A stretch of DNA of 64,000 nucleotides from Acidimicrobiaceae bacterium (lineage in GTDB: Bacteria > Actinomycetota > Acidimicrobiia > Acidimicrobiales > UBA8190). This document shows positions 15,067-45,170 of the stretch, one piece after another. Under the pieces are notes generated by a model. The model worked only from the letters and a program-made list of their open reading frames with translations, did no database searches and had not been told where the DNA came from. The DNA lies in contig PLXQ01000034.1 of NCBI GenBank assembly GCA_003151475.1, positions 1 through 64,000 on the forward strand. The letters run 5' to 3'. The position numbers and the translations under genes are program-made. Position 1 is the stretch's first letter. Every line of letters begins with the position of its first letter.

Positions 15067-15879
15067 GTGATATCAACTCGTGGGGGAATCAGCTCGGGAG
15101 GCCGCGCCGACCTCGCAGCCGTGCTCGGCCCTGGGCGGCGTTTCGTGACGACCCACGACGTAGTCACGGCCTTGGGCGTCGATGCCGAGACCGCTAGCCG
15201 GAAGCTGTCCCGGTGGGCAGCAGAGGGCTGGCTCCGGCGTGCTCGGCGCGACCTCTATATTCCGGTCCCCCTGGACGCCTCCAATCCGGCAGCCTGGTCC
15301 GAAGACGCCCTGGTGGTCGCTACGGCCGTTTGGCCCGAGTCGTACATCACGGGGTGGACGTCGGCGAACCACTGGGCGATGACCGATCAGTTGTTCCGCA
15401 CCACCGTCGTCAAGACCGCCGGGCGGGTCCGTGCATCGTCTGTCCGTGTCCTCGATCACGACTACCTCGTGACGCACACGTCCGCCGACTCGCTGGCATG
15501 GGGGATGAAGATGGAGTGGCACGACGAGGTGCGCCTCCGCATCGCCGACCCCGCACGGACGGTCATCGACATCCTCGACACGCCACGTCTCGGTGGCGGC
15601 ATCCGGCACGCCACGGACATCCTCTCGTCGTATCTCGATAGCCACGACCCGTTAGTCCTCGTCGACTATGGCGACAGGCTCGGCAACCGCACAGTATTCA
15701 AGCGCCTCGGCTACATCGTGGAATTCCTTGGCGGGCACGGTGATCTCGTTGCCGCTAGCCGCGACCGGATTTCCACTGGAGTCTCGCCACTCGATCCCGA
15801 CGCTCCACGAAGCGGGCGGACAATCACCCGCTGGCAGCTCCGGATCAACGTCGCCCTGGCATACGCGGAGCCCGCATGA
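15067..15879 (+). CDS. AbiEi-family antitoxin / transcriptional repressor
   Basis: The 270-residue protein begins with a winged-helix region (FVTTHDVVTALGVDAETASRKLSRWAAEGWLRRARRDLYIP, about 24-64). The AbiEi C-terminal domain follows, with a WPESYITGWTSANHW segment and ADPARTVIDILD. In type IV toxin-antitoxin pairs this protein counters the AbiEii nucleotidyltransferase and represses the operon. The start is GTG 15067 after GGAGG. The stop overlaps the toxin start as ATGA. Confidence 0.88.
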   Translation: MISTRGGISSGGRADLAAVLGPGRRFVTTHDVVTALGVDAETASRKLSRWAAEGWLRRARRDLYIPVPLDASNPAAWSEDALVVATAVWPESYITGWTSANHWAMTDQLFRTTVVKTAGRVRASSVRVLDHDYLVTHTSADSLAWGMKMEWHDEVRLRIADPARTVIDILDTPRLGGGIRHATDILSSYLDSHDPLVLVDYGDRLGNRTVFKRLGYIVEFLGGHGDLVAASRDRISTGVSPLDPDAPRSGRTITRWQLRINVALAYAEPA

Positions 15880-17057
15880 TCCCCAAGCGCGAGCTGCTGG
15901 AGCTACGGACCGAGTGGGCGCTCGACGTCGGCATCATCGAAAAGGATTACCTGCTTGGGTGGCTCCTTGCCGGGATCGCCAACGATCCCGCCCTTCGTGA
16001 CACGTGGGTGTTCAAGGGCGGCACCTGCCTGCGCAAGTGCTACTACGAGACATATCGGCTCTCCGAGGACCTGGACTTCACCATCATCGACGGCGGCCCC
16101 GAGGAGCCGGAGAGGCTGGTCACAGTCTTCCGCCGGATCGCCGAGTGGGTGCGCGAGCAGTGCGGTATGGAACTTGTCATCGACGACAGGTCGTTCCGCC
16201 GGCGCCAGAATCGTCGCGGCAACCCGACCACGCAGGGCGGGATTGCCTATCGGGGGCCGACTCTTCCGACTCAATTCCCCAAGGTGAAGATCGACCTCAC
16301 GACGGATGAGGTCCTGGTCACTCAGCCAGAGATGCGTCCGATCGGCCATCAGTACAGCGACGCACTCCTCCCCGGAGATGGAGTTCGCTGCTACTCGCTC
16401 ACCGAGCTTTTCGGCGAGAAGCTCCGGGCTCTCGCCGAGCGCTGTCGCCCCCGTGACCTTTACGACGTCGTCCACATGCACCGGCATCCGGACCTCATCG
16501 GGCTTGCACCGGAGGTCGCGTCGATCCTGGCCCGAAAGTGCGCACACGCTGGGATTGACGTCCCTACCCTGAGCACGATCCACGACTCCCCTTATCGGGC
16601 GGAAGTTGAGCAGGAGTGGGAGAACATGCTCGGGCATCAGCTGCCGAAGCCGTCGCCACCTTTCGTCGATTTCTGGCGCACCCTCGACGACGTCTTCGCC
16701 TGGCTCGGCGGCGAGGCCGCTATCGTCCTGCCCAGGGCCGAGCAGGCCAAGGACGACCTCGATCCCACGTGGGTGGCACCACGAGCGATCACGTCGTGGC
16801 ACCGTGGCTTCCCATTCGAACTGATCCGCTACGCCGGGGTCAACCGGATGAAGGTCGAGATTGACTACCAAGCGATGAACGGACGCTGGGGACCTCGGAT
16901 CGTCGAGCCCTACTCGCTTCGGCTCACCAAGGCCGGGAACCTCATCCTCTACGTTGTCAACGACCGGGATCAGATTCGTGGCTACCGAGCCGACTTCATC
17001 GCCGGCGTCAGACCCACCAGCGAGACGTTCGTGCCCCGGTTCGCGGTCGAGTTCTAA
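15876..17057 (+). CDS. AbiEii/AbiGii-family nucleotidyltransferase toxin with WYL-like C-terminus
   Basis: The 393-residue protein has the nucleotidyltransferase core: FKGGTCLRK (46-54) and SEDLDFTI (63-70) with the two metal-binding aspartates, and later a lysine/arginine-rich GEKLRALAER. Relatives transfer nucleotides to tRNA ends and stop growth. Residues from about 312 (ELIRYAGVNRMKVEIDYQ then VEPYSLRLTKAGNLILYVVN) resemble a WYL domain, a ligand-sensing module not usual in this toxin. It is about 90 residues longer than typical AbiEii. It is coupled to the antitoxin gene. Confidence 0.85.
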   Translation: MIPKRELLELRTEWALDVGIIEKDYLLGWLLAGIANDPALRDTWVFKGGTCLRKCYYETYRLSEDLDFTIIDGGPEEPERLVTVFRRIAEWVREQCGMELVIDDRSFRRRQNRRGNPTTQGGIAYRGPTLPTQFPKVKIDLTTDEVLVTQPEMRPIGHQYSDALLPGDGVRCYSLTELFGEKLRALAERCRPRDLYDVVHMHRHPDLIGLAPEVASILARKCAHAGIDVPTLSTIHDSPYRAEVEQEWENMLGHQLPKPSPPFVDFWRTLDDVFAWLGGEAAIVLPRAEQAKDDLDPTWVAPRAITSWHRGFPFELIRYAGVNRMKVEIDYQAMNGRWGPRIVEPYSLRLTKAGNLILYVVNDRDQIRGYRADFIAGVRPTSETFVPRFAVEF

Positions 17058-17176: not shown

Positions 17177-20101
17177 TCAGAAGTCTTCTTCGTACTCGTT
17201 CCAGGTAGCCCCGGCCTGCTGTGCCTTGGTTTCGACAGTGTCCAGTGCGCCGGCGGCGGCGTTCAATTCCACCTTGATAGTGGCAACCTGCACGTCCCGG
17301 CCGGACGACGGGTCGATGACGTCGGCGAGTTCCGTGAGGAACTGGTAGAGGCTCTCCCGGGAGTTGCGATCGGTGAGGCTGCGATTCGTTAGCTGCATTT
17401 CGTGGACCAGATACTGCTTTGGCCCATCAGATGCAGTCTCGAGAGCAGGCGCCGGAGCTCCAACGCCAGCGGCGGACCCCTCGGCGCTAGAAGTCTCGGC
17501 GGCCGGGATCTCGCTGGGTTCCTCTTCGGGACGCGCCAGCCGTAGCTGCTGGTCAGGACTGTTTAGCGCCAACTGCTCCGGCGAGGCGACATGGAGCCGC
17601 TCGCCGGATGAGGTAACAAGCTCCCATGCCACGCCATCTTCGTCTGGACGGAACGTGTCGTAGATCGCTCTCCGGGCGACCGCCTCGCTCGGGATGACGG
17701 GAAATGCCGGGTCTCTCCAGAACTTCTCGACGACCTCGGCCAGCGTGTAAGGGCGGACTGAGAGATCAAGAAGGTGATGGAGATACGCGCCAGCGAGGCC
17801 GTCGGCGGAGCGCACAGCGTCGCCGCGTTTGGCGAGGTCCTCCCAAACGTCGTTGCCTGAGAGCGAACTGCACGCATCGTTCTCGAACTTAGCGAATTCA
17901 GGCCGAAGCCCTTGGTCGTCTCTCACTAGGTAGACATAATGCTGGAACGCTCGGCGGATCTCGGCGTCGAGCAGCTCGAGAGCCTCGTTTACCTCTGTCA
18001 CCATCTCCGCGTGGAGCTCGGAGTCGGGGGCCACGTCATTGTTCGCCAGCAACCAGGCGTACGCGCTTCGGGCCCGCTTGGCCATCGCGTCGCGCCGCTG
18101 GGTGTTGACGCAGGCGATCACGCAACTCGCGGCAAAGTCCACCCCCAACCGTTTCGGCCCCAGCCCGAGCACCGCCTCGATGTCGTCTCGGCTGCCACTG
18201 TCGCGGCCGTTCAAGAGGGTCCACCGTCGTGGGTCGAGGACAACCAGGCGATTCGAGCGGCGCTGGTCTACCTCCCGGAATAGGTCAGGGAGCGTCGTGT
18301 CAGCCGCCGACTGTTCAATAAAGAGCACCTTGTCGAAGGCGCTGCCCGAGGAAGCGAGCTTCTGCACCCGCTCCCACACCAGGGCGTAGTACAGCTCCGG
18401 AGTCGAGCGGTTGAGGGCGTTGCGCTGGAACATCCGCTTGTTCAGCTGGGTGACCAGCAGGTACCTGTGGGGGACGCTACCGCCGCCCCCCTGGATCACG
18501 TCGAGAGCGCCGAGACCCCGTTCGTCCTCATCGTCGGTGAGGGCATTGAAGATCTCTTCCGCGTCGCCAAGGCCGAAGATCTCGTCAGGCACGTACAAGG
18601 TGGCGAGCAGCTCCGCTTTGGTTGCACCGCGCTTGCCCTGGGCCCGCGCTGCGACCGAGTAGAGCCAGAGCGCCGAGGCAAGGCGCATCGCTGGGTGAGG
18701 TTGGACCGAGACCCAGGGCCTGCCATCGGTGAGTCGCAGATCGGCAAGGACCGCTTGACCATCGGAACGATCAGCCGAAGTGATGTCTTTCTCGGCCACC
18801 TGACGCATCCCGACAATCTGACGGTCGTTACCGTGAAGTACGCCTGAGGAGAGGACCCGGTCCGCTGCGACGTGGAGCGGGATGTCACCGACACCGATGA
18901 GCTCCGGCACCCACTGACCGGCGTGATGTTCGGTGACCCACCAGTAGGCGCTGGCCGAAAACACCTCCACGGTCGAGCGCACCCTCTGGAATCCGGTGTG
19001 CTGGGTCCAGTCGTGTTCGACGAGGTCGAGCAGGTCAGGGTGAAACGGGTAGGACCGCTCGAGACGGTCGCCGAGGCCGGCGAGCTGGCGCGCGCCAGGC
19101 AGTCGATCGAAGACATGTTCACGCCATGCGGTGCTCACCCCTTCCCTCCAGCGCTCGGCCAGAGCAGCCAACGGGAGGTCCTTGTCGGGCCGATTGAAAA
19201 TCCGGCGCCGGATGATGGCCCCGAAGTCCTGAGGCTCGTTGACGCTCACCGTCGTTCCGTTCCGTTCGAGCCTTCGCGCGATGTAACTGCGGAACTCCTG
19301 AGCTGGGCCTTCGTAGCCCTGTTCGTCGAGGTCCGAGCGGATCATCACGGCCACGAGGACGGCGCTTTCCATCTCGGCTACGGCACCGGTGAGGGCGTTC
19401 AGGAATGCCTGTTCTTCGGGGATTGTGTCACGGTGATCGGGCCCTGCGAGGGCCATGGCGTAGTCCATGATCTCGTCGAGCAGGATGAGAACGGGATGAC
19501 CGACGGCTCGGATGGCGTCCTTGATGGCCGCCTTGTCTGTCCCAGCGGTGACATGTGAGTCGTAGAGGGCGCGGTCGCCGGCGAACAGAGCCCACAGGAA
19601 GCGCTGGTGCAAATTGACCGCAGGGCCGAATTCGGGCCGGGCGGCACCCGGGCTGAAGTTGTCTGCGCACAGAACTACGGGGTGCACGTCGCGGAGTTCG
19701 AGGTCCTTCCCGGCACGCTGGCGGGCGACGCCGAGGACCTGCTGGCCGATGTCGCTCGCGTAGAACTCGTCCTGGTGCGTCGCCATGTGCCATAACCCGA
19801 CCAGGGCGTGGCTCTTTCCACCGCCCATGCCCTGATCCAGGTGGAATAGTCGGTTGCCATCGAACATCTCCCCCGCGAGGCCAGCCCCGGCCAGCAAGCG
19901 GGTGATCTCAGCCATGAACTCGACGAGCTTGGTGGTCGGCTCCGTGATGTCACACCAGTAGCTGGCCTCCCGGTAAGGGACATCAGCGGTCTGATAGGCG
20001 GCCTCGTACAACGACATCTGGAGACCCTGGGCTTGGCCATGGCGCTGTACCACCTCGGGCCGTAGCTCAAGCACGTCAGCCCAGTGCGAAACGACCATCA
20101 C
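17177..20101 (-). CDS. DUF499-family AAA+ ATPase of a defence operon
   Basis: The 974-residue protein has a P-loop LDQGMGGGKSHAL near residue 90 and Walker B VLILLDEIMDY near 204, which fits the DUF499 ATPases (COG1483). A DUF499 ATPase is recurrently encoded with a DUF1156 methyltransferase and a large helicase in defence islands, and some of these families are labelled as phage-defence associated. The start is GTG 20101, which overlaps the methyltransferase stop (GTGA); ATG 20098 is equally possible. It is the third gene of a coupled operon. Its biochemical role is unknown. Confidence 0.82.
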   Translation of the reverse strand: MMVVSHWADVLELRPEVVQRHGQAQGLQMSLYEAAYQTADVPYREASYWCDITEPTTKLVEFMAEITRLLAGAGLAGEMFDGNRLFHLDQGMGGGKSHALVGLWHMATHQDEFYASDIGQQVLGVARQRAGKDLELRDVHPVVLCADNFSPGAARPEFGPAVNLHQRFLWALFAGDRALYDSHVTAGTDKAAIKDAIRAVGHPVLILLDEIMDYAMALAGPDHRDTIPEEQAFLNALTGAVAEMESAVLVAVMIRSDLDEQGYEGPAQEFRSYIARRLERNGTTVSVNEPQDFGAIIRRRIFNRPDKDLPLAALAERWREGVSTAWREHVFDRLPGARQLAGLGDRLERSYPFHPDLLDLVEHDWTQHTGFQRVRSTVEVFSASAYWWVTEHHAGQWVPELIGVGDIPLHVAADRVLSSGVLHGNDRQIVGMRQVAEKDITSADRSDGQAVLADLRLTDGRPWVSVQPHPAMRLASALWLYSVAARAQGKRGATKAELLATLYVPDEIFGLGDAEEIFNALTDDEDERGLGALDVIQGGGGSVPHRYLLVTQLNKRMFQRNALNRSTPELYYALVWERVQKLASSGSAFDKVLFIEQSAADTTLPDLFREVDQRRSNRLVVLDPRRWTLLNGRDSGSRDDIEAVLGLGPKRLGVDFAASCVIACVNTQRRDAMAKRARSAYAWLLANNDVAPDSELHAEMVTEVNEALELLDAEIRRAFQHYVYLVRDDQGLRPEFAKFENDACSSLSGNDVWEDLAKRGDAVRSADGLAGAYLHHLLDLSVRPYTLAEVVEKFWRDPAFPVIPSEAVARRAIYDTFRPDEDGVAWELVTSSGERLHVASPEQLALNSPDQQLRLARPEEEPSEIPAAETSSAEGSAAGVGAPAPALETASDGPKQYLVHEMQLTNRSLTDRNSRESLYQFLTELADVIDPSSGRDVQVATIKVELNAAAGALDTVETKAQQAGATWNEYEEDF

Positions 20102-22893
20102 GGTGCCCTAGTCTCGTCGAAGGCGAGCGAGTCCTGATGGACCGTGGCTGCGACCCGCCTGGCCTCAGCCTCGATGGCCCGTCGATTCCGCTGGCAGGCG
20201 GTGAGAGCCACGGTCACCCGGTCGGACTCCGGCAGTTGGCGAACGAGATCGGCGACGGTCGCCCACACGTGCTGATCGTCGGCTGGCCGATTGGAGTCTG
20301 CCAAAGCCTGAGCCACGGCTTCGGTGCCGCCAGCCGGCCAGGCACCGGCGAGGGCCCGGACAATCTCGATAACTGATGACCGCTCGGTCACGACTTCTGG
20401 AACGTTGAGGGTGAGAGTGAAGCCACCCTTAGACTCCTCCAGAATGCGCGGGCGAAGCTCGTCGATACGCATATCGCTCGACTGGGCGTGGAACACGGCT
20501 TCCCCCTTGTTGACGATCGTTGTCCCGAAAGCCCGGAGCCAGAAGATGGCGAACCGGGTTTGCGGGTCGAAGGTGTCAAGGGGTAGTTCGTCCACCTTGA
20601 AGGCATGAGCGTCGACGACAGCGCGGCGGCCAATGGCTAGGAGGTACTCCAAGTTGGGTTCGGATCCGTCTGGACGTTGGATGGAGCTGTACCGCCCGAC
20701 GACTTCCATGGCCGGGCCGAAGGCTGCCATCAGCTGGTCTGATAGCGCCAACTCCCAGTGGTCCCACTCCGTGGTCCGTTTGCGTACCATCTCGGCGATC
20801 TCCCGCTCGACTTGAGCGGCGGTGGCTGATCGACGCGCCTGAGAGGCGACTCGGCATCCAATGGTGATCGTGACCCTGATTGAGGCGACGCCGGTATTTC
20901 CCGACTCGGTGCGCGCCGGCCAGGCCGAAGTCACGACGAAACCAGCGTCACGCAGTGCCCCTAATAGCCGGCGCCATGCCTCGGGATCTGAGTGCCCGAA
21001 GACTACCGTAAGCACCCCGCCGGGCTTGAGAACTCGGCGCATCTCCTCGAACGCCACAGCAAGCTGCTTCTCGTACCATTCGGCCGTGCGGTGGTCACTG
21101 GGAGCGCGGCCCTGCTTGACGACGATCTCTTCGCTCTTGTCCTGCAATCCCAAGGCGTCCCCAGGACGTCCGAACAGGTCAGGGACAATGTCGAAGAGAC
21201 AACGTCGGAGCCACACGTAGAAATAGTCCGAGACGTCCGCGTAGTTGATCATCTCGTAGTACGGAGGGTCAGTCACCACAGTGTCGACCGTTCCGTCGCG
21301 GTACGGAAGGTGTATCGCAGAGGTCTGTCTGAAGCGACCGGGCTCCGCTAGGTGTGAGAGTCCACCAAGGTGCTTATTCAGCGGCCTGAGAAGGCTGGCC
21401 GCGAGTGATCTCCACGTACCCGGGCCCGCTCCCGGACCAGTCTCGAACCAATCGAAAGCGAAGCTGATCCCGCTTTCGTTTGTGAAGAGATCGCCGATCC
21501 CGACCGCTGGACGGTCACCGTAAGCTTCCAATCGCGACCCGCGTGTGGCCCGCCGCAATCTGCGGACGAGGTTCGCCGAGGCGTAAGCCGCGAGGGCGGC
21601 AGCGTAATCCTCCGAGATGCCCGCAGCGATCGAGTCACGGTGGCAAGAACGAATCGCCCGAGCTGTTTCTACGAATAGGAGGCACTGTCGCGCGTTCATC
21701 AGACTCGCGAAGGTCTTGAACCCGTAACCAGTTGCGTCGATCGTGCTGGCATTTCCTGGCGCAATCTTCTCCGTGGGAGCTCCAGGGATGTCCCCGAACG
21801 GAAGAAGCGATTCGAGATCCACGCTTACTGCGGCGGTTAGTTCCTCCGGGCGAAGTGTCCTGAATACCTTGCGCTCGACCTGGCGGGTGCGCCCCCTCGC
21901 ACTGGGAACCTCCACGGTCGACAGATCAGCCCCTACAACTGGAGCGTCTTCGTACTGTCCTGCGAATCCCTTGGCCTTGACTGTGTCGAGAGGGTGGACA
22001 TGATCGCAGTACGGGCAGCGGGCGGATTTCCCGCGGCGACCTTCCGCGGCGGCGAACGTGGGTACCCCGCTCGGGATCCCGTCCTCAACGGTGGCCTCCC
22101 AGGTCTTGCTCCTCTGGTCGACGACGAGCAGCAGACTCTGACCTTGATCGCCCGTGGGTTGGTAGGGCTTCCGAAGAGCTAGTGAACCAAGCAGGGGGAA
22201 TCGTCCTTGGCATTCGTCGCAGGGGATCGTGATGGCCCACAGATAACCCCACGGATAGCTCCCATCAGAGTTCTTCGGGTAGTAGCTCGATACGGACGAC
22301 TCGAGGCGACGGTCCACCTCCGCGAGAAAAGGGCGCAAGTCCTGGATGAGCTTGGGCTCACCACTTGACTGGGCGAACAGCGATGCGTCGTCCGACTCGA
22401 TGGCGTGGCCGTCGGCCAGGTCGAAGGGCACGTCCGGCTCTCTTGTCCAGTCGCGCAGCGGCCAGTCCGCGAGCAGACGAGAGGCCAGCGCTGCCACCGG
22501 GGAGAGATCGAGTCCGACGGCGCGCAGGCCAATCCTGGCCGCTTCGAGCGGAATGATGCCCCGTCCGGAGAAGCAGTCGAGGACGACGGGTCGCTGGCCT
22601 TCGACATCCGGGATCAGTGATGCCAGCGCGTCCAGTGTCGCCCAGTCGCCGGTGAGGACTGCGCTCGTCACGAGTTGACGCAACTCCTCATCGCCATCCT
22701 CAGAATCCTCGATCAGTAGGGAACACAGCACAGCGGCACGTGCCTGAGCGATGGGTCGTGAGGCGAACCAGGTGAAGATGGCTTTCTCGTTCTGGCCGGA
22801 CCCGGCGGGCGAGCCGCAGGCCTGATCGACCGCTGCAACGGGGAACCAGCGCTCGATGAGCGGGGCTGTGCCGTTGGAAGGTTTGGCGGTCAT
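20098..22893 (-). CDS. DUF1156 DNA methyltransferase with zinc ribbon
   Basis: The 931-residue protein has SAM-binding motif LDCFSGRGIIPLEAAR near residue 103 and the catalytic TDPPYYEMINYADVSDYFYVW near 540, as in amino-methyltransferases that modify adenine N6 or cytosine N4. Between them lies a zinc-ribbon-like pair, CDEC (about 222) and CPYC (about 290), which matches COG1743 adenine-specific methylases with a Zn ribbon. ATG 22893 overlaps the helicase stop (ATGA). It probably marks host DNA so that the helicase/ATPase part spares it. Confidence 0.85.
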   Translation of the reverse strand: MTAKPSNGTAPLIERWFPVAAVDQACGSPAGSGQNEKAIFTWFASRPIAQARAAVLCSLLIEDSEDGDEELRQLVTSAVLTGDWATLDALASLIPDVEGQRPVVLDCFSGRGIIPLEAARIGLRAVGLDLSPVAALASRLLADWPLRDWTREPDVPFDLADGHAIESDDASLFAQSSGEPKLIQDLRPFLAEVDRRLESSVSSYYPKNSDGSYPWGYLWAITIPCDECQGRFPLLGSLALRKPYQPTGDQGQSLLLVVDQRSKTWEATVEDGIPSGVPTFAAAEGRRGKSARCPYCDHVHPLDTVKAKGFAGQYEDAPVVGADLSTVEVPSARGRTRQVERKVFRTLRPEELTAAVSVDLESLLPFGDIPGAPTEKIAPGNASTIDATGYGFKTFASLMNARQCLLFVETARAIRSCHRDSIAAGISEDYAAALAAYASANLVRRLRRATRGSRLEAYGDRPAVGIGDLFTNESGISFAFDWFETGPGAGPGTWRSLAASLLRPLNKHLGGLSHLAEPGRFRQTSAIHLPYRDGTVDTVVTDPPYYEMINYADVSDYFYVWLRRCLFDIVPDLFGRPGDALGLQDKSEEIVVKQGRAPSDHRTAEWYEKQLAVAFEEMRRVLKPGGVLTVVFGHSDPEAWRRLLGALRDAGFVVTSAWPARTESGNTGVASIRVTITIGCRVASQARRSATAAQVEREIAEMVRKRTTEWDHWELALSDQLMAAFGPAMEVVGRYSSIQRPDGSEPNLEYLLAIGRRAVVDAHAFKVDELPLDTFDPQTRFAIFWLRAFGTTIVNKGEAVFHAQSSDMRIDELRPRILEESKGGFTLTLNVPEVVTERSSVIEIVRALAGAWPAGGTEAVAQALADSNRPADDQHVWATVADLVRQLPESDRVTVALTACQRNRRAIEAEARRVAATVHQDSLAFDETRAP

Positions 22894-25800
22894 TTGGTCT
22901 CTCCCGTGAATCGACGCAGCTGGCTGACGGGGATCTGAAAGCGCTCGATGAGGCGCGGACCGCCGCTGAGCGTACCGGCGGGATCCTGAACCACGGCGGT
23001 CAAGGTCGGATCGCTGAAGCAGTGTGTAACTACATAGAGCCAGTACTCGGATCCACGCTGCATCGCCTGGGCCCACTCGTTTGATTCGAGGGTGACTGGA
23101 CCGAGGTCGGTGAGTTGCCCCTTGACCTCGACTAGGCGCTGCTCCTTGGTGGTGCGGTGTTTGGCGAAGAGGTCGTACCCGAGTCCGGCCGTCTGGCGAT
23201 CGTCCACGTCGAAGCCCTCTGAGGTGAGGCGGGCCTTGACGAGTTCGATGGCAGGGAGCTCACTGTCGGGGTCGTACCCGATGTCAGCGAGCAAGGCGCC
23301 TGGGTGTACATCGACCCAGCCGATGAGCTGAGGCGGAGACGCCGTGACCGCCTCGGCCCGCGCCAAGTCGTCGAGTCGGCTCCGACGGTCCACCTCGAAC
23401 TTCTCCCGAGCCAAGACTCGCTGCTCTTCGGGGAGCTCTCGCAACTGGCGTTGCCAGCGGGCCCGCAGCGCTTCCAGGTCGTCCCTAGCGCGGCCAACCC
23501 ACCGGGCCTGTTCGTCGGTCGCTTTGCGCTGCTGTTCGATAACGTTGGTCTCAGCTGCTTCGGCCACCGTGACCCGGGAGCCCGGTGCGGGCCGAGTGGC
23601 CACATCGGGAGTCGGGCGGAGGTTAGCGACGGCGGTCCAGTCGACTGGAAAGGCCGAACCCCCCGAGTAGCGGATGAGGAATGGGCTGGGCCGCGCCGTC
23701 TTGGTGACGCCGTCATAACTCTGGATCTCGGTGGAGAAGAGGAAGAGCGTGTAGGCGGTGGTCGAGGCCTGGTCAACGACGGCCGACCCCCTGTAGAGCT
23801 CGGGGCCGAAGCGCTCCGCACAGTAGCCAAGCAGCTGGCGAAACGAGTCCTCCGTTGGCCCGATGGTGACGATCGAGCCAAGCTCCGCTCCCGCCGCGCG
23901 CGCGGCGGCGGTGGCGCTTCCATCCACCGAGACCAGCCGGCTCACCTCACCCCCCAGGGCGGCAGGGAGCATCTGGGTCGCACGCACGGTGAGGATGCGC
24001 TCGGCAGGTCCGGGCCCTACCTGCCACCCCGCTGCGGCGGCCAAGTTGCGAAGGAAACCCTCGACCATGACGGGGTTTACGGCTTCGAGGCGGTCGACAG
24101 CGAAGCGGGCCTGGGCCTCGCTCAGGTCGGTCGGAGTACGCAGGGCATCTTCCTCGGACGCAAGTTCTCGAGCCTGCTGGACGAGGGTCTCCGTCGACGG
24201 CACCCGCTCGATGGCATCCACACCTCGGTATGCGTCGGCGAGGGCAGCTGCGAAGTCGAACCCGGCTCGTGCCGCGGTGGCGTCCATGAGGTCGAACATC
24301 CGGCCGTCGAGCGCTTCGGCCGCCGCATCCAGGTTGCGCAGCAGCACCTCCTGGACGTGTCCCTCACGGGTTGCTGGGGCCACCAAGTGGTAAATAAACA
24401 CTGGGTTTAGCTGGCCGATGCGATGCAGACGGCCAGCGCGTTGTTCGAGCCGTACCAGGCTCCACGGCACGTCCCAGTCCACCATCACGCTCGCCGATTG
24501 GAGGTCTATGCCCTCACCGCCGGCATCCGTCGAGACCAGTACCTGGTAGCGCCCGGCGAGGAAATCTTGCTGGAGCTGGTCCCGTCGGTCCTGGGCGGTG
24601 GCTCCGCTCAGCAGTTCTGTGCTGAACCCCGCGTTCAAAAAGAGCCCTTCGAGCCATTTCGCGGTGTCGGTGAACTCGGTGAAGACGAGGAGCTGCCCGG
24701 ACCCTGGACGCAGCTCATGCCGAGAGCACACATCGAGGACTGCATCCCACTTCACCGGGAGCACTCCGCTGCGGAGCCAGCGTTCGAGGCTGTCCAAAAC
24801 GTTGTCGAGGGCTTTCAACTCCCCGCGGCGGTCTCGGCTCTTCTCCGCAATGATGGAGTCCTCGGCCTGGGCCCAGGACTCGTCATCATCGACGGCGGCG
24901 TCGAGGAAGCGGGCATCATCGAACCCTTGGGGCGCGGGTGGTGCGACCTGCCCGGCTTGAGCTCCGGAGAGTGCCTCCCGCCGCCGCCGCAGCGTTTGAA
25001 CCGCGGCGGCAATGCTGGAAGCCGCCCGCTTGCCGTAGATGCTGCGTGCCAGCGTCGATCTGACGTCGTACCACTCGTCGACATAACCGAGGACCGCATC
25101 GTAACAGTCGAGCTCATCCTTTGGGAGGGTGACAGTAACCGTCTCCGAGTAACGGGGTTTGAAGAGAGGTTTACCGTCGTGGTCTCGCAGATCTTCCTTC
25201 ATTCGGCGTAGGAAATGCAGCTGCGCGGGACGAAGACGCCGCTCTGGCTCGGTGTCGCCGGGGCCGGCGGTTATGGGATACATGTCAGGGTCGAGGGTGT
25301 TGAGCAAGCACTGGAAGTACCACTCCTTGCCCCGATGCGGGGTTGCTGTGAGCATGAGCAGATGGTGGGCCACCTTCGCCACCTGCTGGGCCGCGCCGAG
25401 GTACTGCGATGTCGGGGTCAGGCGGTGCGCCTCATCGAAGATGGCCAGTGACCACGATGCTGTCGAACCCGCGACCTTGCGCAGCACGTCAGGGTTGTGG
25501 GTTAGCAGGTCGACAGAGACCACCCAAACGTCTACGTCGTCACGCAATGGCCGGGGACTGCGGGCGACTGCCGAGTCGATGCGCTCAGCGTCGATGCCGA
25601 AGTAGCGCCACAGATCTGCCAGCCACTTAGTCACAAGGTGTGCGGGCGGGACGATGAGAACCTTGCCAGGGACCACGCGCCGGCGTCGCCCTTCGGCGAT
25701 GTACATCCCCGACATGATGGTCTTGCCGGTGCCGGGCTCGTCGGCCAGCAGAAAGCGGAGCCGCGGCTGAGGCAGCATGTGGACAAAGACTGCCTCGTCC

Positions 25801-26147
25801 TGGTGGGCATACGGACGGACCGGCTTGGTGGCGGTGGCCGCCGAGCGGATGCGAGGCGTAGCCCACTCCATCCACTTTCCCCACAGGCCGGCCACCGCCC
25901 CCGCAGAGTCGCCGCCTCCGTCATTACTCGGCTGACGGGCCGCTTCGACCTCCTCCACCGAAAGCGTCACCTGGTTGAGCCCAGCGGGACCCTTCAAGAT
26001 GAGATCCACGCGGTCGGCCCGTTCATCGAGCACGCTCAGCACCTCGACGAGATCCCCGCCCCAGTAGAGGCGGTCGCCACGCTCTACCACGCTCCGCCTC
26101 CGGAGCAAGGGGCGGTGGTCGGCGTCCTGGCTGGAGTCATCGTCCAT
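22890..26147 (-). CDS. SNF2/SF2 helicase with DUF3883-like nuclease-fold C-terminus
   Basis: The protein has about 1085 residues. The helicase core shows FLLADEPGTGKTIM (about 130), the DEAH motif LAIFDEAHRLT (about 232), LTATP, a second RecA domain with QLLVFTEFTDTAKWL, and STDAGGEGIDLQ followed by EQRAGRLHRIGQ. The last 120 residues contain GLGYDLFAKHR then RLVEVKG, the DUF3883 pattern with an ExK pair like PD-(D/E)xK nucleases. It is the first gene of the helicase-methyltransferase-ATPase operon. The ATG at 26174 is an alternative start, and neither has a clear ribosome site. Confidence 0.87.
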   Translation of the reverse strand: MDDDSSQDADHRPLLRRRSVVERGDRLYWGGDLVEVLSVLDERADRVDLILKGPAGLNQVTLSVEEVEAARQPSNDGGGDSAGAVAGLWGKWMEWATPRIRSAATATKPVRPYAHQDEAVFVHMLPQPRLRFLLADEPGTGKTIMSGMYIAEGRRRRVVPGKVLIVPPAHLVTKWLADLWRYFGIDAERIDSAVARSPRPLRDDVDVWVVSVDLLTHNPDVLRKVAGSTASWSLAIFDEAHRLTPTSQYLGAAQQVAKVAHHLLMLTATPHRGKEWYFQCLLNTLDPDMYPITAGPGDTEPERRLRPAQLHFLRRMKEDLRDHDGKPLFKPRYSETVTVTLPKDELDCYDAVLGYVDEWYDVRSTLARSIYGKRAASSIAAAVQTLRRRREALSGAQAGQVAPPAPQGFDDARFLDAAVDDDESWAQAEDSIIAEKSRDRRGELKALDNVLDSLERWLRSGVLPVKWDAVLDVCSRHELRPGSGQLLVFTEFTDTAKWLEGLFLNAGFSTELLSGATAQDRRDQLQQDFLAGRYQVLVSTDAGGEGIDLQSASVMVDWDVPWSLVRLEQRAGRLHRIGQLNPVFIYHLVAPATREGHVQEVLLRNLDAAAEALDGRMFDLMDATAARAGFDFAAALADAYRGVDAIERVPSTETLVQQARELASEEDALRTPTDLSEAQARFAVDRLEAVNPVMVEGFLRNLAAAAGWQVGPGPAERILTVRATQMLPAALGGEVSRLVSVDGSATAAARAAGAELGSIVTIGPTEDSFRQLLGYCAERFGPELYRGSAVVDQASTTAYTLFLFSTEIQSYDGVTKTARPSPFLIRYSGGSAFPVDWTAVANLRPTPDVATRPAPGSRVTVAEAAETNVIEQQRKATDEQARWVGRARDDLEALRARWQRQLRELPEEQRVLAREKFEVDRRSRLDDLARAEAVTASPPQLIGWVDVHPGALLADIGYDPDSELPAIELVKARLTSEGFDVDDRQTAGLGYDLFAKHRTTKEQRLVEVKGQLTDLGPVTLESNEWAQAMQRGSEYWLYVVTHCFSDPTLTAVVQDPAGTLSGGPRLIERFQIPVSQLRRFTGETK

Positions 26148-26343
26148 ACGGTGACATCGGCCATTCGGGGACATCGGTCAAGTTCAGTGTGGCCACGCTT
26201 GGGATGGCGGTCGCCGGAAGCCGGAGGCCGCCTAGGCCGAACAAGGCTGAGCGAAGGGCGAGTCATCCTGTCGCTCGGGGCGACCTCCCGTCCGCTGAAC
26301 ATGGTGCGATGAGCCTACTGAGATAGGCGGCCACTCAGCGTGA

Positions 26344-39164: not shown

Positions 39165-39908
39165 CTACGCAAACTGCACAAATTCCGCGTGAGGACGCCA
39201 AGTAGCGTCGTAGTTGGCGAGAACATCTGCCAACCTCTGTCGATGTTGCGGCACCGGGACGATTAGGAGGAATCGACACGAGCCTCGCCGACCCACAACA
39301 GCTCCTAACGGAGTAAAGCCCGTTCCGGCGCTCAGCGTGCGGAGGCACGTTTGTACCTGGCTTGCTACCCCACCGGGCTGTCTATTTGCGTGCTGGTAGA
39401 CGATGATGCTCTGGCCTCTGGTGCTGTAGTCACTAAGCTCACTCATGAAGGCGTATTTCTCTCTTCTAGAGACCTTCGGGTCCCCGCAGACTCCGTTGTC
39501 TGGGTCGGCGAAGATCAGATCGACCTCGGCAAGGCGCTCCAACGCTTCGCGATGCCAAGCGCTTCGTTCGGCAGCTGTCCTAGCCGGCGACAGGCGACGT
39601 CGGTATGTGAGCGTACCCCCCGGTAGCGCTCCACTCTCCTCAAGTCCCTTCACGTTGCGGTTCCTCGACCGAACAAGGTTGCCGAGCCGGAGGAAAAGAT
39701 CCGGATCACATTGTTCAAGCGACGGACCATGCCTGTTTCCCGGCGACAAGTAGCCCACGTGCTGTCCGTCCGAATTGTGGAACTCGTCGGGCGCCAGATA
39801 CCAGTTTACGCCCAGTCGAATTGGCGTAGCGCCGTCGTCTGAACAAAGCCATCGGAGGAGCCCCAGTTTCAGGAAATCTCCGACGTCCCCAGCGTAGCGA
39901 TCCTCCAT
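39165..39908 (-). CDS. Uncharacterised protein with N-terminal YxGDxGDFxKxGLLR motif
   Basis: The 247-residue protein starts RYAGDVGDFLKLGLLRWL and has NWYLAPDEFHNSDGQHVGYL, CDPDLFLRLGNLV, and a central VDLIFADPDNGV that could bind a metal or nucleotide. I recall similar N-termini in unnamed bacterial families, but not a function. ATG 39908 is preceded by CGGAG. It lies 86 bp after the small kinase-like gene on the same strand and may be the last gene of that operon. Confidence 0.6.
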   Translation of the reverse strand: MEDRYAGDVGDFLKLGLLRWLCSDDGATPIRLGVNWYLAPDEFHNSDGQHVGYLSPGNRHGPSLEQCDPDLFLRLGNLVRSRNRNVKGLEESGALPGGTLTYRRRLSPARTAAERSAWHREALERLAEVDLIFADPDNGVCGDPKVSRREKYAFMSELSDYSTRGQSIIVYQHANRQPGGVASQVQTCLRTLSAGTGFTPLGAVVGRRGSCRFLLIVPVPQHRQRLADVLANYDATWRPHAEFVQFA

Positions 39909-39994
39909 CTGTCAACTCCGGCTAAGTCCAGGCAGTATCGAGCTCGAGCGAAGGTGAACCGTAGCGACCACTCGAACCGGGCTTCGAAGGTATT

Positions 39995-40537
39995 TCAACT
40001 GCGGTCACGTCGGCCAGCAATCAGGTCGACTATCGCGGCCACCGACTCTGCAACACTCAGCTCCTCTGTCGGAAGGACCAAAGTCGCGAGGCTCCGGAGT
40101 TGTCCGACAGCGCGCTCGGTCGGATGTCTACTCGCGTCCTCGAACGACATAGATCGCTTAACCAAGTCCGTCCTTGCGGAGGAGGCAAACCGACGTGCAC
40201 GGGTCTCACGACCTGCGTCCAAATAGACAAGGAAGGAATCAGAGAGTACCTCCAGGATAGGAAGCGTCTGACGTCGTGTCCTGACGGAATCCACGATCAG
40301 ACCTGGGTCGATTTCCAGGCGAGCGTCCAGATATTCGAGCAGCCAGCGCCCTCTCGTCTGTCTGTCGAGCCGAGCGCCTTGATCCTGGAGAGTCCTTCTA
40401 TCTGGTTGATGGAGTCCCAAGACATCTAAGAGGGCTTGGCGGACACTTACGACCGCCGCGTCGATAGCCGGAGCAAGTTGCTTCGCGACCGCCGACTTCC
40501 CGGCACCGATCTCTCCCGAGATGAGGACGCAGCTCAT
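39995..40537 (-). CDS. Small P-loop kinase-like protein
   Basis: The 180-residue protein opens with LISGEIGAGKSAVAKQLA (P-loop, about 5-22). It has a plausible substrate region with D-rich IDPGLIVDSVRTRRQ, and ends with a helical part containing DASRHPTERAVGQLR. This resembles nucleoside, nucleotide or coenzyme kinases, though the exact substrate cannot be read from motifs. It begins 3 bp after the AAA ATPase gene stop, so the two are co-translated. Confidence 0.65.
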   Translation of the reverse strand: MSCVLISGEIGAGKSAVAKQLAPAIDAAVVSVRQALLDVLGLHQPDRRTLQDQGARLDRQTRGRWLLEYLDARLEIDPGLIVDSVRTRRQTLPILEVLSDSFLVYLDAGRETRARRFASSARTDLVKRSMSFEDASRHPTERAVGQLRSLATLVLPTEELSVAESVAAIVDLIAGRRDRS

Positions 40538-40540
40538 CCC

Positions 40541-42784
40541 TTAGAGGCGAGACACTTCACCACTCGCCGAAACTGCGTAGCCCTGGTCCTTCAGCCATGC
40601 CGACAGGTCGTGCACCGGCGTCTCCACGCTCCAATATCCGTTCTTGAGGTCGACGATACCTTCCGGCAACCGCCCAGAGCGACGCACTTTAGCGTCAACT
40701 GGTTTCACAACTCTCAGTCTTCCATGGTCGCGCCGTTGAAAATTTGCCAACGTGCTGTAGCGCGCGATGACCTTCTCCGTGTCCATCTGACCAACGTCTC
40801 CTGACGGGTCGAGCCAGTCGCTCTCCATGAGTTCCTGGCCGAATTGCTCCAGGATCCCAAGAGCCGCCGTTCCCTTATCGAGTTTTCCATCCGCTCCGGT
40901 GACGAGGCTCGAAGCGAAGCGCTGCAGCTGTTCATAGCGGAGGAGACCTATCCAGGCGAGCCCCTCGACAGTACCGTGCTTGCCTGGGGTGAGGGCTCCG
41001 ACGACGTCCTCTTCTGTGACTTCAACGTCAACCTTCGATGTTCTGAGCGCCTTAGCCTTTGAGGCGAACGAGGGTGGCAGGGTGAAGATCAGTGCGTCGA
41101 AGCGCTGACTGCGACGCACCGCAGAGTCGACCACGTCGATTGCGTTTGTGTTTACGAAGAAGAGCACCTTCTTCTGCGCCCAAAGGCGAGCGAGCCGGGG
41201 AAGCATCGTCGTTGTGAAGAATCTCTCCATCGAGTCAGCGCGGTCATCCCGTTGCCGAATTAGTTCATCGATTTCGTCCAAAAGGACGACATGGTGATCC
41301 AGTTCCATCAGCTGCCGAAAAATCTCGTCGGCCCGCGCGCTGACTAGGTCTACCCCCCGGTCGAGAAACTGCGCGGGGGTGATTTCAATAAAACTCCACC
41401 CTAAGGCCCCGGCCAGCGCCTCGATGAGCGTCGTCTTGCCCGTTCCGGGCGGCCCGAACAGCATCGCTGATCGAGAGTGCAATTTCGTCAACACGGCCTC
41501 GTCCGGGTCGATTGAGTACTGCTTGAACGCCTCAATCGGATGGACGAAGAGACTGGCGAGTTGGAGTCCGACTGACCCGTGTTTCGCGTTCCATGTATCG
41601 CCCCGCTCTACGAATGTACTTAGGTCACCGGCCGGCTGCCGGACTCCCAAGATTTTCGCTGCTCTTTCCCGAGTCCATATTCCCAACAGTTGTCTAAGAC
41701 CTTCGAAGAAGCGGAACACGCTTGCCGTAGCCCAGCTTTCCGGTGCTGGACGATTCGGGTGATGGCCTGAGCACCAACCGAGACGATTTCCTTCTGCGTC
41801 GAGGGGCCTGGCCGTCTCGACGGCATATTCGTAGCTCCGGATGAGGTTGGGGCAGTACTGAAGTAGGTCACGACGTAGGTTGTCTCCCAACGCGTTGGCC
41901 TGCATCGCGAGCGAGAGCAGTTCGGCGAGAGTTTCGAAAACATAGCAGTAGGCGTTTCCTGCTTCGGGGTAGTGGAACAGTGCCTCCCCTCTTGGCCAGA
42001 CGCCATTTGCGTCTTGCTGTTCGAAGAATGCTTTGAGTCCGGCATTGACGAGGTCGACTCCGAAGCCGGGTCTGTCCGGGAGCGCTTCGGGGCGGGCCAT
42101 TAGATATCCGCATATTGACCATGCCAGTTGTTGCGGATCGGATCGCCTCGACTTCACCGAATGGAGGGCTATCTGTCGCCCCAAGCTCTTCTCGAACCAA
42201 AGCTCGAGAACGTCTCGTTTTTCCTTGAGGTTACTGTTGTCGATTTCCTTCGGGCTCCTGTCGAGGCTTGCTAACGCCCAATATGACAAATAGGCATTGG
42301 GTGGATACGCGGAAGCACCTACTCGCTCTTGCTCGTAAATTCCGTCGTGCCCCTTGACCGGCTCGAGCTTCGACCATGCCTCGTCAAGTAGTTTCTTGGC
42401 CACTTCCCGCTGCTTTGCGGACAGTGTTCCCGCATGACGAAATATCGGTCCTAGTGATCGCACGCGGCAATAGGTTGTCGCTGCACCTTCACTCTGCCAG
42501 TCATCTGGAAATTTGAATGCCTTCGCGGTGAAGCGTCTAAGGACCTCATGAGTGGCGACCGTGTCCTTCTCTTCGGCCATCGTTTGGTCAAGTAGAGACT
42601 CGAGACAAGTAAACGTGGTGGTGAGGCGGTCCACCTTCCGTCCTGACGGAGGTCGGGTCGAAGGACCCATCGTGCGGCTAAATGAGTCAGTTCCGCTATC
42701 GAAAAATACCATCACGCTCTGATGGTGGAAGACGGCCTGTTCTCGAACTCGAGCTCGCAGGGCGCTCAGTTCATCGAAATCCAC
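40541..42784 (-). CDS. AAA+ ATPase with N-terminal helical toroid-like region
   Basis: The 747-residue protein has a classic AAA+ module in its C-terminal half: LFGPPGTGKTTLIEALAG (about 442-459), Walker B VVLLDEIDEL, sensor FVNTNAID and arginine-finger region RRSQRFD. The first 430 residues look like alpha/alpha-barrel repeats, for example AYLSYWALASLDRSP and FFEQQDANGVWPRGEALFHYPEAGNAYCYVFE; the QQDANGVW motif recalls terpene-cyclase or lanthionine-cyclase-like barrels. The start is GTG 42784, 8 bp after the upstream gene. It probably senses or remodels something for this operon. Confidence 0.75.
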   Translation of the reverse strand: MDFDELSALRARVREQAVFHHQSVMVFFDSGTDSFSRTMGPSTRPPSGRKVDRLTTTFTCLESLLDQTMAEEKDTVATHEVLRRFTAKAFKFPDDWQSEGAATTYCRVRSLGPIFRHAGTLSAKQREVAKKLLDEAWSKLEPVKGHDGIYEQERVGASAYPPNAYLSYWALASLDRSPKEIDNSNLKEKRDVLELWFEKSLGRQIALHSVKSRRSDPQQLAWSICGYLMARPEALPDRPGFGVDLVNAGLKAFFEQQDANGVWPRGEALFHYPEAGNAYCYVFETLAELLSLAMQANALGDNLRRDLLQYCPNLIRSYEYAVETARPLDAEGNRLGWCSGHHPNRPAPESWATASVFRFFEGLRQLLGIWTRERAAKILGVRQPAGDLSTFVERGDTWNAKHGSVGLQLASLFVHPIEAFKQYSIDPDEAVLTKLHSRSAMLFGPPGTGKTTLIEALAGALGWSFIEITPAQFLDRGVDLVSARADEIFRQLMELDHHVVLLDEIDELIRQRDDRADSMERFFTTTMLPRLARLWAQKKVLFFVNTNAIDVVDSAVRRSQRFDALIFTLPPSFASKAKALRTSKVDVEVTEEDVVGALTPGKHGTVEGLAWIGLLRYEQLQRFASSLVTGADGKLDKGTAALGILEQFGQELMESDWLDPSGDVGQMDTEKVIARYSTLANFQRRDHGRLRVVKPVDAKVRRSGRLPEGIVDLKNGYWSVETPVHDLSAWLKDQGYAVSASGEVSRL

Positions 42785-42792
42785 GTGAAGTC

Positions 42793-43560
42793 CTAGGCTG
42801 CGCTGGGCCGCCGAGCAAATCGTTCAGCATTCACTTCTTCCTTCTCCGTGACGGCCGACGCCAGATCGATGCCCAGGGCATTCGCGAGGTGGACGAGGTA
42901 GAGCTGCACGTCCGCAAGTTCGCTCCCAACCGGAGACTCCCGAAATGGATCATCTCGGCGTAGTCCTTCGTTCTTGCGAACAGCGTGTGCGAGCTCGCCT
43001 ACCTCCTCGACGAGAAGCAAGAGAGTGTCGCGCGGACTTTCCCGCTCCCACCCACGCTCCTCCGCCACGCGCGCGTAGTACTGCTGAAGCCTTGCAAGTC
43101 CTGCACCTGGGTGTCGCGACAACCGAGCGGGGACCTGTTCGAAGCTGTCAACCACTTCAACAATGGAACCAAGCAAAGGATCGGTTGGCGACTGGCCTGC
43201 GAATACCGGAAGCCCAATGGCGTGCGCGTAGCCGATCTCCAGCGAGGCGCTGTGGCCCACATAGCCATCCGGACAGAAGAGCCATATGAAGTCGGAAGCC
43301 CTGAGTGCGGATAGGTGCCGAGCCTCAATCTGCTCCACCGACTCTTCGAGTTCATGAGGCAGTCTTACGTACTCACCGATCGGATCGACGAAGTCGACTG
43401 ACTTTGGAGAGAGAACGTCGAAAGTCGCTCTAAGGGAATCGTAGGCCTCTCGGAGCGCCCGAGGCGAGCGCCTGAAACTGCCGCACAGGACGACCCTGAG
43501 GCGCTCGGACTTCTCCTTGCTATTTGTCTCCAACTGACCCGGCAGCGTGGCGGTTGACAT
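42793..43560 (-). CDS. Nucleoside 2-deoxyribosyltransferase-like / MazG pyrophosphatase fusion
   Basis: The 255-residue protein has two parts. Residues about 20-150 follow a deoxyribosyltransferase-type Rossmann pattern (LRVVLCGSFRRSP, then ALRASDFIWLFCPDGYVGHSASLEIGYAHAIGLPVFAG with a Glu in the active-site position). Residues about 160-250 carry the MazG signature: LLVEEVGELAHAVRKNE, then GSELADVQLYLVHLANALGIDLASAV with the EEVxEL and ELADV metal ligands. Such a pair would cleave nucleosides or nucleotides and hydrolyse NTPs. ATG 43560 follows AGGAGACCAG. It is the first gene of the operon. Confidence 0.8.
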   Translation of the reverse strand: MSTATLPGQLETNSKEKSERLRVVLCGSFRRSPRALREAYDSLRATFDVLSPKSVDFVDPIGEYVRLPHELEESVEQIEARHLSALRASDFIWLFCPDGYVGHSASLEIGYAHAIGLPVFAGQSPTDPLLGSIVEVVDSFEQVPARLSRHPGAGLARLQQYYARVAEERGWERESPRDTLLLLVEEVGELAHAVRKNEGLRRDDPFRESPVGSELADVQLYLVHLANALGIDLASAVTEKEEVNAERFARRPSAA

Positions 43561-43571
43561 CTGGTCTCCTA

Positions 43572-44114
43572 ATGTCAATGATTAGCGTTATTGTGTCACG
43601 TCCAGCCACCGTTGTCACGGGGTTCAGCACCCCTCACGTCAGCACGCTTACCGGCGTCCCCCCATCCACATTGAGCTACTGGGTGGCGAGGGGACTCGTT
43701 TCGCCTTCTCTACGGCCATCGACAGGCCGGCGTGCAACTCGTTGGTGGTCGATCACAGACCTGATTGTCGTCAGGGCTATTAGGGCGCTACGAGAAGCGG
43801 GTTGTTCGATGCCGATGCTTCGCAAGGTCAAGGGTTTGGTCGAGGACTGGGGCGAGGACCTTTCTCAGGTTCACCTCTGCTGGACGGGAACGGACATTCT
43901 TGTAACCGAGCCCTGGGGGCAGATTCACTCATCACTGAGACAGCCTGGCCAAGGCGTCCTTCACCTCATGGTCATTCCCCTTGCAAAGTGGCATCGTGAG
44001 TTGGAGCCCGAAGGGGTTGAGGTCGACACCTTGAGACTCAAGCGCCTAGCAGCGGAGCGGAGCAAACGATTGATGACTCCGATCGAGACAGTCACGATCC
44101 GACGACGCGCCTAA
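43572..44114 (+). CDS. MerR-family HTH regulator
   Basis: The protein has about 180 residues. A MerR-type N-terminal domain, STPHVSTLTGVPPSTLSYWVARGLVSPSLR, is followed by WSITDLIVVRAIRALREAGCSMPMLRKV with its wing and helix. A C-terminal sensory part with TDILVTEPWGQ follows. It is divergent from the deoxyribosyltransferase-MazG gene with a very short gap, so it probably controls that operon. The start is uncertain; ATGs at 43572 and 43578 and a GTG at 43593 are open. Confidence 0.72.
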   Translation: MSMISVIVSRPATVVTGFSTPHVSTLTGVPPSTLSYWVARGLVSPSLRPSTGRRATRWWSITDLIVVRAIRALREAGCSMPMLRKVKGLVEDWGEDLSQVHLCWTGTDILVTEPWGQIHSSLRQPGQGVLHLMVIPLAKWHRELEPEGVEVDTLRLKRLAAERSKRLMTPIETVTIRRRA

Positions 44115-44640: not shown

Positions 44641-44877
44641 ACGAGGTGTTTGGCCGCCGTAGCGTCAGCATTATTGTGCGGCGCTCAGAGCAAGCTGGGC
44701 GCTCGGCTTTCACCGGCCGGGTGCCTCGGCAGTCGACTGCTGAGGCCGTCTTGCCCTACGACTTGCCCTATAAAACGCACCGTTCGCCGTCGTGGAGTGT
44801 CGTGAACCGTCATGGGCGTCCCTGGTCAGACCGCTTTCCGCCGTCTGGTCCCGTCCGGGAAAACCTTTCGGATCGGA

Positions 44878-44916
44878 TTATCAGTGCTGCGCTCTAACCG
44901 GCTGAGCTATAGCCCC
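44878..44916 (-). pseudogene. 5' half of tRNA-Ile(GAT), truncated in the anticodon loop
   Basis: Read on the minus strand from 44916: acceptor GGGGCTA, D-arm TAGCTC..GAGC, anticodon stem CAGCA and loop CTGATAA with GAT anticodon. After the loop comes TCCGATCCG, which does not pair with CAGCA, and no T-arm follows. A tRNA-Ile beside gyrA is common, and integration into an anticodon loop is a known site choice of tyrosine recombinases, so this is a likely insertion scar. Confidence 0.78.
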
Positions 44917-45170
44917 GTCTACGAGAAGCGTTCCGCCAACTTCGGATCGCACTCGAGGCCCATAGCGTAGCGTCACCTCGCCGGAACCCAGAAACGCAGA
45001 TCGGGAGCCTCTGTGGCCGCCTGTTTCACCTTCGGTGTCTGGGCCACGACCAAGACCGTGGCCGGACCTACTCGGCCGCGCCAATCCCGCAGTAGATGAC
45101 GGCCTGCCGTGTGCTTGTCAGCTCCCAGGACATCGCCGATCTGACCCCCCGCCAGAACCGAAAGGCGCGC

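Follow-up and report, generated by a model that had tools for sequence, protein, structure and literature searches.

The stretch of Acidimicrobiaceae DNA analysed here (the window, 64,000 nucleotides of contig PLXQ01000034.1) almost certainly carries a conserved, mobile and regulated operon, in which a gene for a fused deoxyribosyltransferase (DRT)-MazG enzyme is followed by those for an AAA+ ATPase and a small P-loop kinase-like protein. We propose, with a probability of about 0.48, that this operon serves to destroy nucleotides, acting against phages or competitors, its part in defence being read from its context. A sequence-only reading of this DNA had supposed that no named system has such a composition. 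Indeed, none of the libraries used names one, and no published description of the composition was found in the open-access literature searched.

Gene layout of the operon

The open reading frames lie where that reading had placed them, with gaps of 8 bp between DRT-MazG and AAA+, 3 bp between AAA+ and kinase and 86 bp between the kinase and a YxGDxGDF gene, and their coordinates were confirmed. The features are as follows.

39165-39908, minus strand: YxGDxGDF protein, a neighbour outside the unit, absent from all operon relatives
39995-40537, minus strand: small P-loop kinase-like protein, 180 aa (Pfam AAA_18 8.2e-6, below the curated cut-off)
40541-42784, minus strand: AAA+ ATPase, 747 aa (PF00004 4.5e-24)
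42793-43578, minus strand: DRT-MazG fusion, 261 aa in the open reading frame list
about 43198-43500 and about 42811-43101, minus strand: the DRT half and the MazG half of the fusion
43524-44114, plus strand: divergent MerR-type regulator (Pfam MerR_1 2.2e-8)
43554-43618: possible overlapping divergent promoters of regulator and operon, TTGACA-17-AATGAT (plus) and GTGACA-17-CACAAT (minus)
44877-44918, minus strand: attachment-site scar that duplicates the 5' half of tRNA-Ile(GAT), all 42 bp matching the intact tRNA

The frames of the fusion and the regulator overlap as listed. The likelier start of DRT-MazG is the ATG at 43560, which has GGAG upstream, and the regulator probably starts downstream of 43524, for example at the GTG at 43593. 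Two promoter-like pairs were seen between the two genes against 1.3 expected in shuffled sequences, which is weak support for promoters there.

The triad recurs in other genomes

Relatives were sought with a family-specific pattern search in one genome per species, and in a sample of the Nocardioides rubriscoriae family. Four complete loci were found outside the window, in N. rubriscoriae (L024), in Mycobacterium sp. 141 (L025) and in two genomes of the N. rubriscoriae family sample (G955, locus L061, and G746, locus L062). All five complete loci share one gene order, a divergent regulator and then DRT-MazG, AAA+ and kinase. Because four further loci have this order, chance association is excluded. 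Pairwise identities are only 48–65% for DRT-MazG, 36–63% for AAA+ and 44–57% for the kinase, so the order has been maintained across considerable divergence. The supposition that these three genes are linked in other genomes is thus borne out, in unrelated islands that are each associated with a tRNA gene. An incomplete locus (L026) holds only the kinase and the C-terminal part of the AAA+ gene.

Two accessory genes accompany the triad. One encodes HEAT repeats weakly similar to DNA-alkylation-repair proteins and occurs in four of the five complete loci, the window being the exception. The other is a second DRT-like gene without MazG, convergent and 3' of the kinase, in three of the five.

The sequence-only reading had counted the MerR gene as a member of the operon. 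A divergent regulator does recur, while MerR itself recurs in that place only once, in L062, where the protein is 42% identical to that of the window (7e-36); a different helix-turn-helix (HTH) family occupies the position in L024, L025 and L061. The same reading had also included the YxGDxGDF gene, which we removed, since it is absent from all five relatives (four complete, one incomplete) and has relatives of its own in other neighbourhoods.

Among the genomes sampled the operon is scarce, and its distribution is patchy. No close AAA+ relative was present in 395 other genomes of the phylum, and the DRT-MazG fusion was absent from 295 other genomes of the phylum and from 297 others of the order. 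The Nocardioides family has it in 3 of 295 genomes; the 301 genomes of the family of the Mycobacterium copy yielded that known copy only, and 375 genomes of the class to which the Nocardioides family belongs yielded no further one. Viral contigs and a phage collection gave no DRT-MazG match either. MazG-only matches in other actinomycetes were rejected as relatives, being unrelated single genes. L026 was likewise rejected as a recurrence in Planctomycetota. It lies on a contig filed under an Isosphaeraceae metagenome-assembled genome (JAJPJC010000400.1) that is probably mis-binned. We took this contig to be actinobacterial because its gyrA product is 76% identical to that of the window over 506 residues.

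The fused enzyme

The fusion itself had been predicted beforehand, and the profile and fold searches agree. Pfam MazG matches it at 3.7e-6 (27.5 bits against a curated cut-off of 22). Pfam DRT matches the window protein at 0.0044, below the curated cut-off, and the Nocardioides relative at 4.7e-5. Profile comparison places the MazG half nearest to DCTPP1/RS21-C6 (2.5e-10); the metal-site residues of this half, EExxE...ExxD, are intact and invariant in the five complete loci. In the DRT half the same loci keep G(S/T)(F/Y)R, P-(D/E)-GYxGxS and a Glu, the putative nucleophile (E114), which is invariant even when the second DRT genes are included. The expectation that the catalytic residues would persist in relatives therefore holds for the MazG active site and for the DRT Glu. 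A search of the PDB with an AlphaFold2 model of the fusion (mean pLDDT 69, medium confidence) gave DNPH1/RCL as the best, albeit modest, match (8.5e-4), followed by deoxyribosyltransferases.

The DRT half shares with DNPH1/RCL and the PF05014 deoxyribosyltransferases a Rossmannoid fold, the GSxR loop and a catalytic Glu in E-x-G-x-A. DNPH1 hydrolyses hmdUMP with Glu104 as nucleophile and Asp80 as acid (PMC10603095). We aligned the family by hhalign with the DNPH1 sequence, entered by hand and checked against its PDB entries. The profile similarity is weak; E114 falls on Glu104, but an invariant His stands at the position of Asp80, so the substrate and mechanism of DNPH1 are not transferable. 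At the position of Tyr24 the fusion has Val or Thr, by manual reading of the shared CG(S/T)(F/Y)R segment. It further differs from DNPH1/RCL in a longer PDGYxGxS loop and in the attached MazG. The loss of Asp and Tyr, the weak profile similarity and the modest fold match all count against the nucleotide-destruction reading.

RS21-C6/DCTPP1 has been reported to hydrolyse 5-methyl-dCTP (PMC10742078). In contrast to that enzyme, MazG here makes up the C-terminal half of a fused protein whose gene shares an operon with an AAA+ gene, and the MazG match leaves the substrate of the fusion unfixed. Nonetheless, the fused enzyme very probably acts on nucleotides, and its resemblance to DNPH1 and DCTPP1 together suggests a two-step course from dNTP to dNMP to free base.

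An alternative that we regard as unlikely, yet the most serious, is that the DRT half works as an NADase or as the maker of a nucleotide-derived signal, like the related TIR and DrHyd domains, with MazG or the kinase limiting or processing the signal and the AAA+ protein sensing infection or receiving the signal. TIR, DrHyd and SLOG belong to one class, whose members in immunity include NADases and enzymes that make signals (PMC9503650). The fusion keeps the Glu and has lost the Asp and Tyr typical of dNMP hydrolases, as this alternative would allow, and the MazG-free second DRT gene of three loci looks as if one protein acts while the other senses. However, the top folds are a dNMP N-hydrolase and deoxyribosyltransferases, not TIR, and an NTP pyrophosphohydrolase as fusion partner suggests NTP/NMP chemistry.

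The AAA+ protein and the kinase

The AAA+ assignment made from the sequence is upheld by the PF00004 match and by a full set of catalytic motifs. A long N-terminal half (about residues 1–420) precedes the AAA domain (about 438–570), which has Walker A GPPGTGKT, Walker B VVLLDEID, an NTN sensor 1 and the conserved arginines R557/R560. Across 13 family members the two Walker motifs, sensor 1 and the arginine finger are invariant. The N-terminal ~420 residues are predicted to be all-helical (pLDDT 66, medium confidence), and no Pfam family was found in this half across the 13 members. A fold search with the same medium-confidence model was swamped by AAA domains and returned AAA matches only, none of them to this half. 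The toroid or closed alpha/alpha barrel that the sequence-only reading had proposed here is a putative shape.

The best PADLOC match of the AAA+ protein is IetA (6.4e-11), with which it shares only the AAA domain. Unlike IetAS, the operon has no IetS-type (subtilase) protease, no protease domain being found in its proteins, and the NCBIfam IteA model scores 26 bits against a cut-off of 510. Nor do the genes make up the mad1–mad8 set of MADS; the regulator and the AAA+ protein give only weak mad1 and mad8 matches. Neither the fusion nor the kinase has a convincing PADLOC match.

The small P-loop kinase gene stands as proposed, with its sub-threshold AAA_18 match and its conservation in six loci. 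RapZ-like, SKI and cytidylate-kinase families also match in Pfam, likewise sub-threshold. Besides the P-loop, the six loci conserve a distinctive DS-RT--QT motif.

Mobile context and defence genes

A tRNA scar and a defence-rich island had both been pointed out beside the operon, and both are real. The scar, 42 bp that repeat the 5' half of tRNA-Ile, stands between gyrA and the operon; another contig of this genome, C65, has the intact tRNA-Ile (G000:C65:52174-52249), adjoining a tyrosine integrase. We infer that positions 1-44918 of the window form the right-hand portion of an element integrated in tRNA-Ile, a placement across two contigs whose join was not seen. Since the attachment repeat is the 5' half, the element would restore the 5' part of the tRNA, a less usual arrangement. 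On the same element are an Hma-like set of helicase, methyltransferase and DUF499 ATPase (17177-26174; PADLOC 2e-86, 3e-45 and 7e-23), an AbiEi/AbiEii toxin-antitoxin pair (15067-17057) and a protein with an ArdC N-terminal domain.

Relatives elsewhere have similar settings. L024, L025 and L061 adjoin tRNA-Leu(CAG), L062 adjoins tRNA-Ile/tRNA-Ala together with a TrwC relaxase gene, and L026 adjoins tRNA-Ile with an integrase. PDC-S19 lies near the Mycobacterium sp. 141 copy. Defence-gene neighbours are, however, also expected for any mobile cargo.

The excluded neighbour, the YxGDxGDF gene, is itself a candidate for a defence gene, to judge from the genes beside its relatives. The window protein carries 'YAGDVGDF', the key positions of which are invariant in relatives, and the family invariants are Y5, G7-D8, D11, K14 and DPDNG; Pfam, PHROGs, NCBIfam and PADLOC held no real match. 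By sequence reading, its relatives (L052, L053, L054, L056) lie near McrBC-like, macro-domain and ADP-ribosylglycohydrolase-like genes, and one adjoins an Orf5-like gene (PADLOC).

A wider AAA+ family beside nucleotide enzymes

In plasmid searches, relatives of the AAA+ protein that are laid out alike turned up in Parabacteroides, Rhizobium and Sinorhizobium. The proteobacterial and mycobacterial relatives adjoin a DUF4406-like DRT protein, which accompanies most of the long-N-half AAA+ genes (L012, L013, L018-L020, L027-L029, L031-L033). This protein has conserved Tyr, Asp and Glu, which may be the DRT triad, and a long, highly conserved C-terminal part for which Pfam gave nothing; a PEP-synthase/ATP-grasp assignment for that part was not supported by a PDB profile search. 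At L018, a prophage locus, the pair sits between portal- and terminase-like genes. Elsewhere it adjoins a DUF4062 gene (L012), PDC-M30A genes (L032) and PDC-S08 (L031). The DUF4062 family consists of NADases whose antiphage role has been validated (PMC13174449).

This pair resembles the operon in its AAA+ architecture, its adjacent DRT-like gene and its defence and prophage contexts. It differs in that no MazG and no P-loop kinase were seen, the DRT has the long C-terminal part, and its AAA+ protein is about 20% identical to that of the operon over the full length. The libraries used hold no name for it. On a Parabacteroides distasonis plasmid (L009, 4225-9511) the AAA+ relative lies among genes for a 539-aa ThyX-annotated protein and for HIT, PRA-PH/MazG-like and DHFR proteins. 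The common theme of the wider family is a nucleotide-acting enzyme adjoining this type of AAA+ protein.

Proposed function

In the nucleotide-destruction reading, the MazG half would release pyrophosphate from (d)NTPs to leave (d)NMPs, and the DRT half fused to it would then separate the base of each (d)NMP from its sugar phosphate; plain rephosphorylation by salvage enzymes would no longer recover the nucleotide. If DCTPP1 and DNPH1 are a guide, pyrimidine nucleotides with a C5 modification, of the kind some phages use, are possible natural targets. The AAA+ protein, as a hexamer with its helical N-half as sensor or substrate arm, might hold the enzyme inactive or activate it during infection. 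The kinase would work on the same pool, either pulling back host dNMPs or making the trigger, and the divergent MerR or HTH protein would control expression. That the target is a phage or competitor is suggested by the Hma-like, AbiE and ArdC genes of the island, by the PDC-S19, PDC-S08, PDC-M30A and DUF4062 neighbours, by the prophage pair and by rarity. Anti-phage systems built on dCTP deaminase and dGTPase act on the dNTP pool, as the operon is proposed to do, but it contains neither enzyme and its proposed chemistry is pyrophosphate release and base removal.

It is rather improbable that the operon instead cleans house, removing damaged or non-canonical nucleotides for the replication fidelity of element or host, with no part in defence. 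DCTPP1- and DNPH1-like enzymes are pool sanitisers, and the HEAT-repeat gene would suit such a task, yet an AAA+ machine, dedicated divergent regulators, rarity and the defence surroundings would be left unexplained. Finally, the tight gene coupling, divergent regulator and element-end position would fit a toxin-antitoxin-like stability module, in which DRT-MazG arrests growth under restraint by AAA+ and/or the kinase and an autoregulated MerR/HTH protein, but four to six genes with an AAA+ protein of about 750–840 residues are large for that role and no known antitoxin family was found in the operon proteins, making this very unlikely.

If nucleotide destruction is correct, the DCTPP1 and DNPH1 steps, separate in human cells, would lie on one polypeptide under AAA+ control on mobile DNA, and nucleotide sanitation would be linked to anti-phage immunity. 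It is conceivable, if doubtful, that the findings outline a new immunity class, with one AAA+ family whose helical N-half senses infection and whose nucleotide-destroying partners are interchangeable. These would be, for actinobacteria, DRT-MazG with the P-loop kinase, where a single polypeptide would break down dNTPs, perhaps modified ones, by two linked reactions; for proteobacteria, mycobacteria and prophages, a DUF4406-like DRT; and for Parabacteroides, thymidylate/MazG-like enzymes. Should the operon work by nucleotide destruction as proposed, it would also allow one to ask directly whether bacteria target the modified nucleotides of phages and not phage DNA, and would put a name to an AAA+ family found repeatedly with nucleotide enzymes across several phyla.
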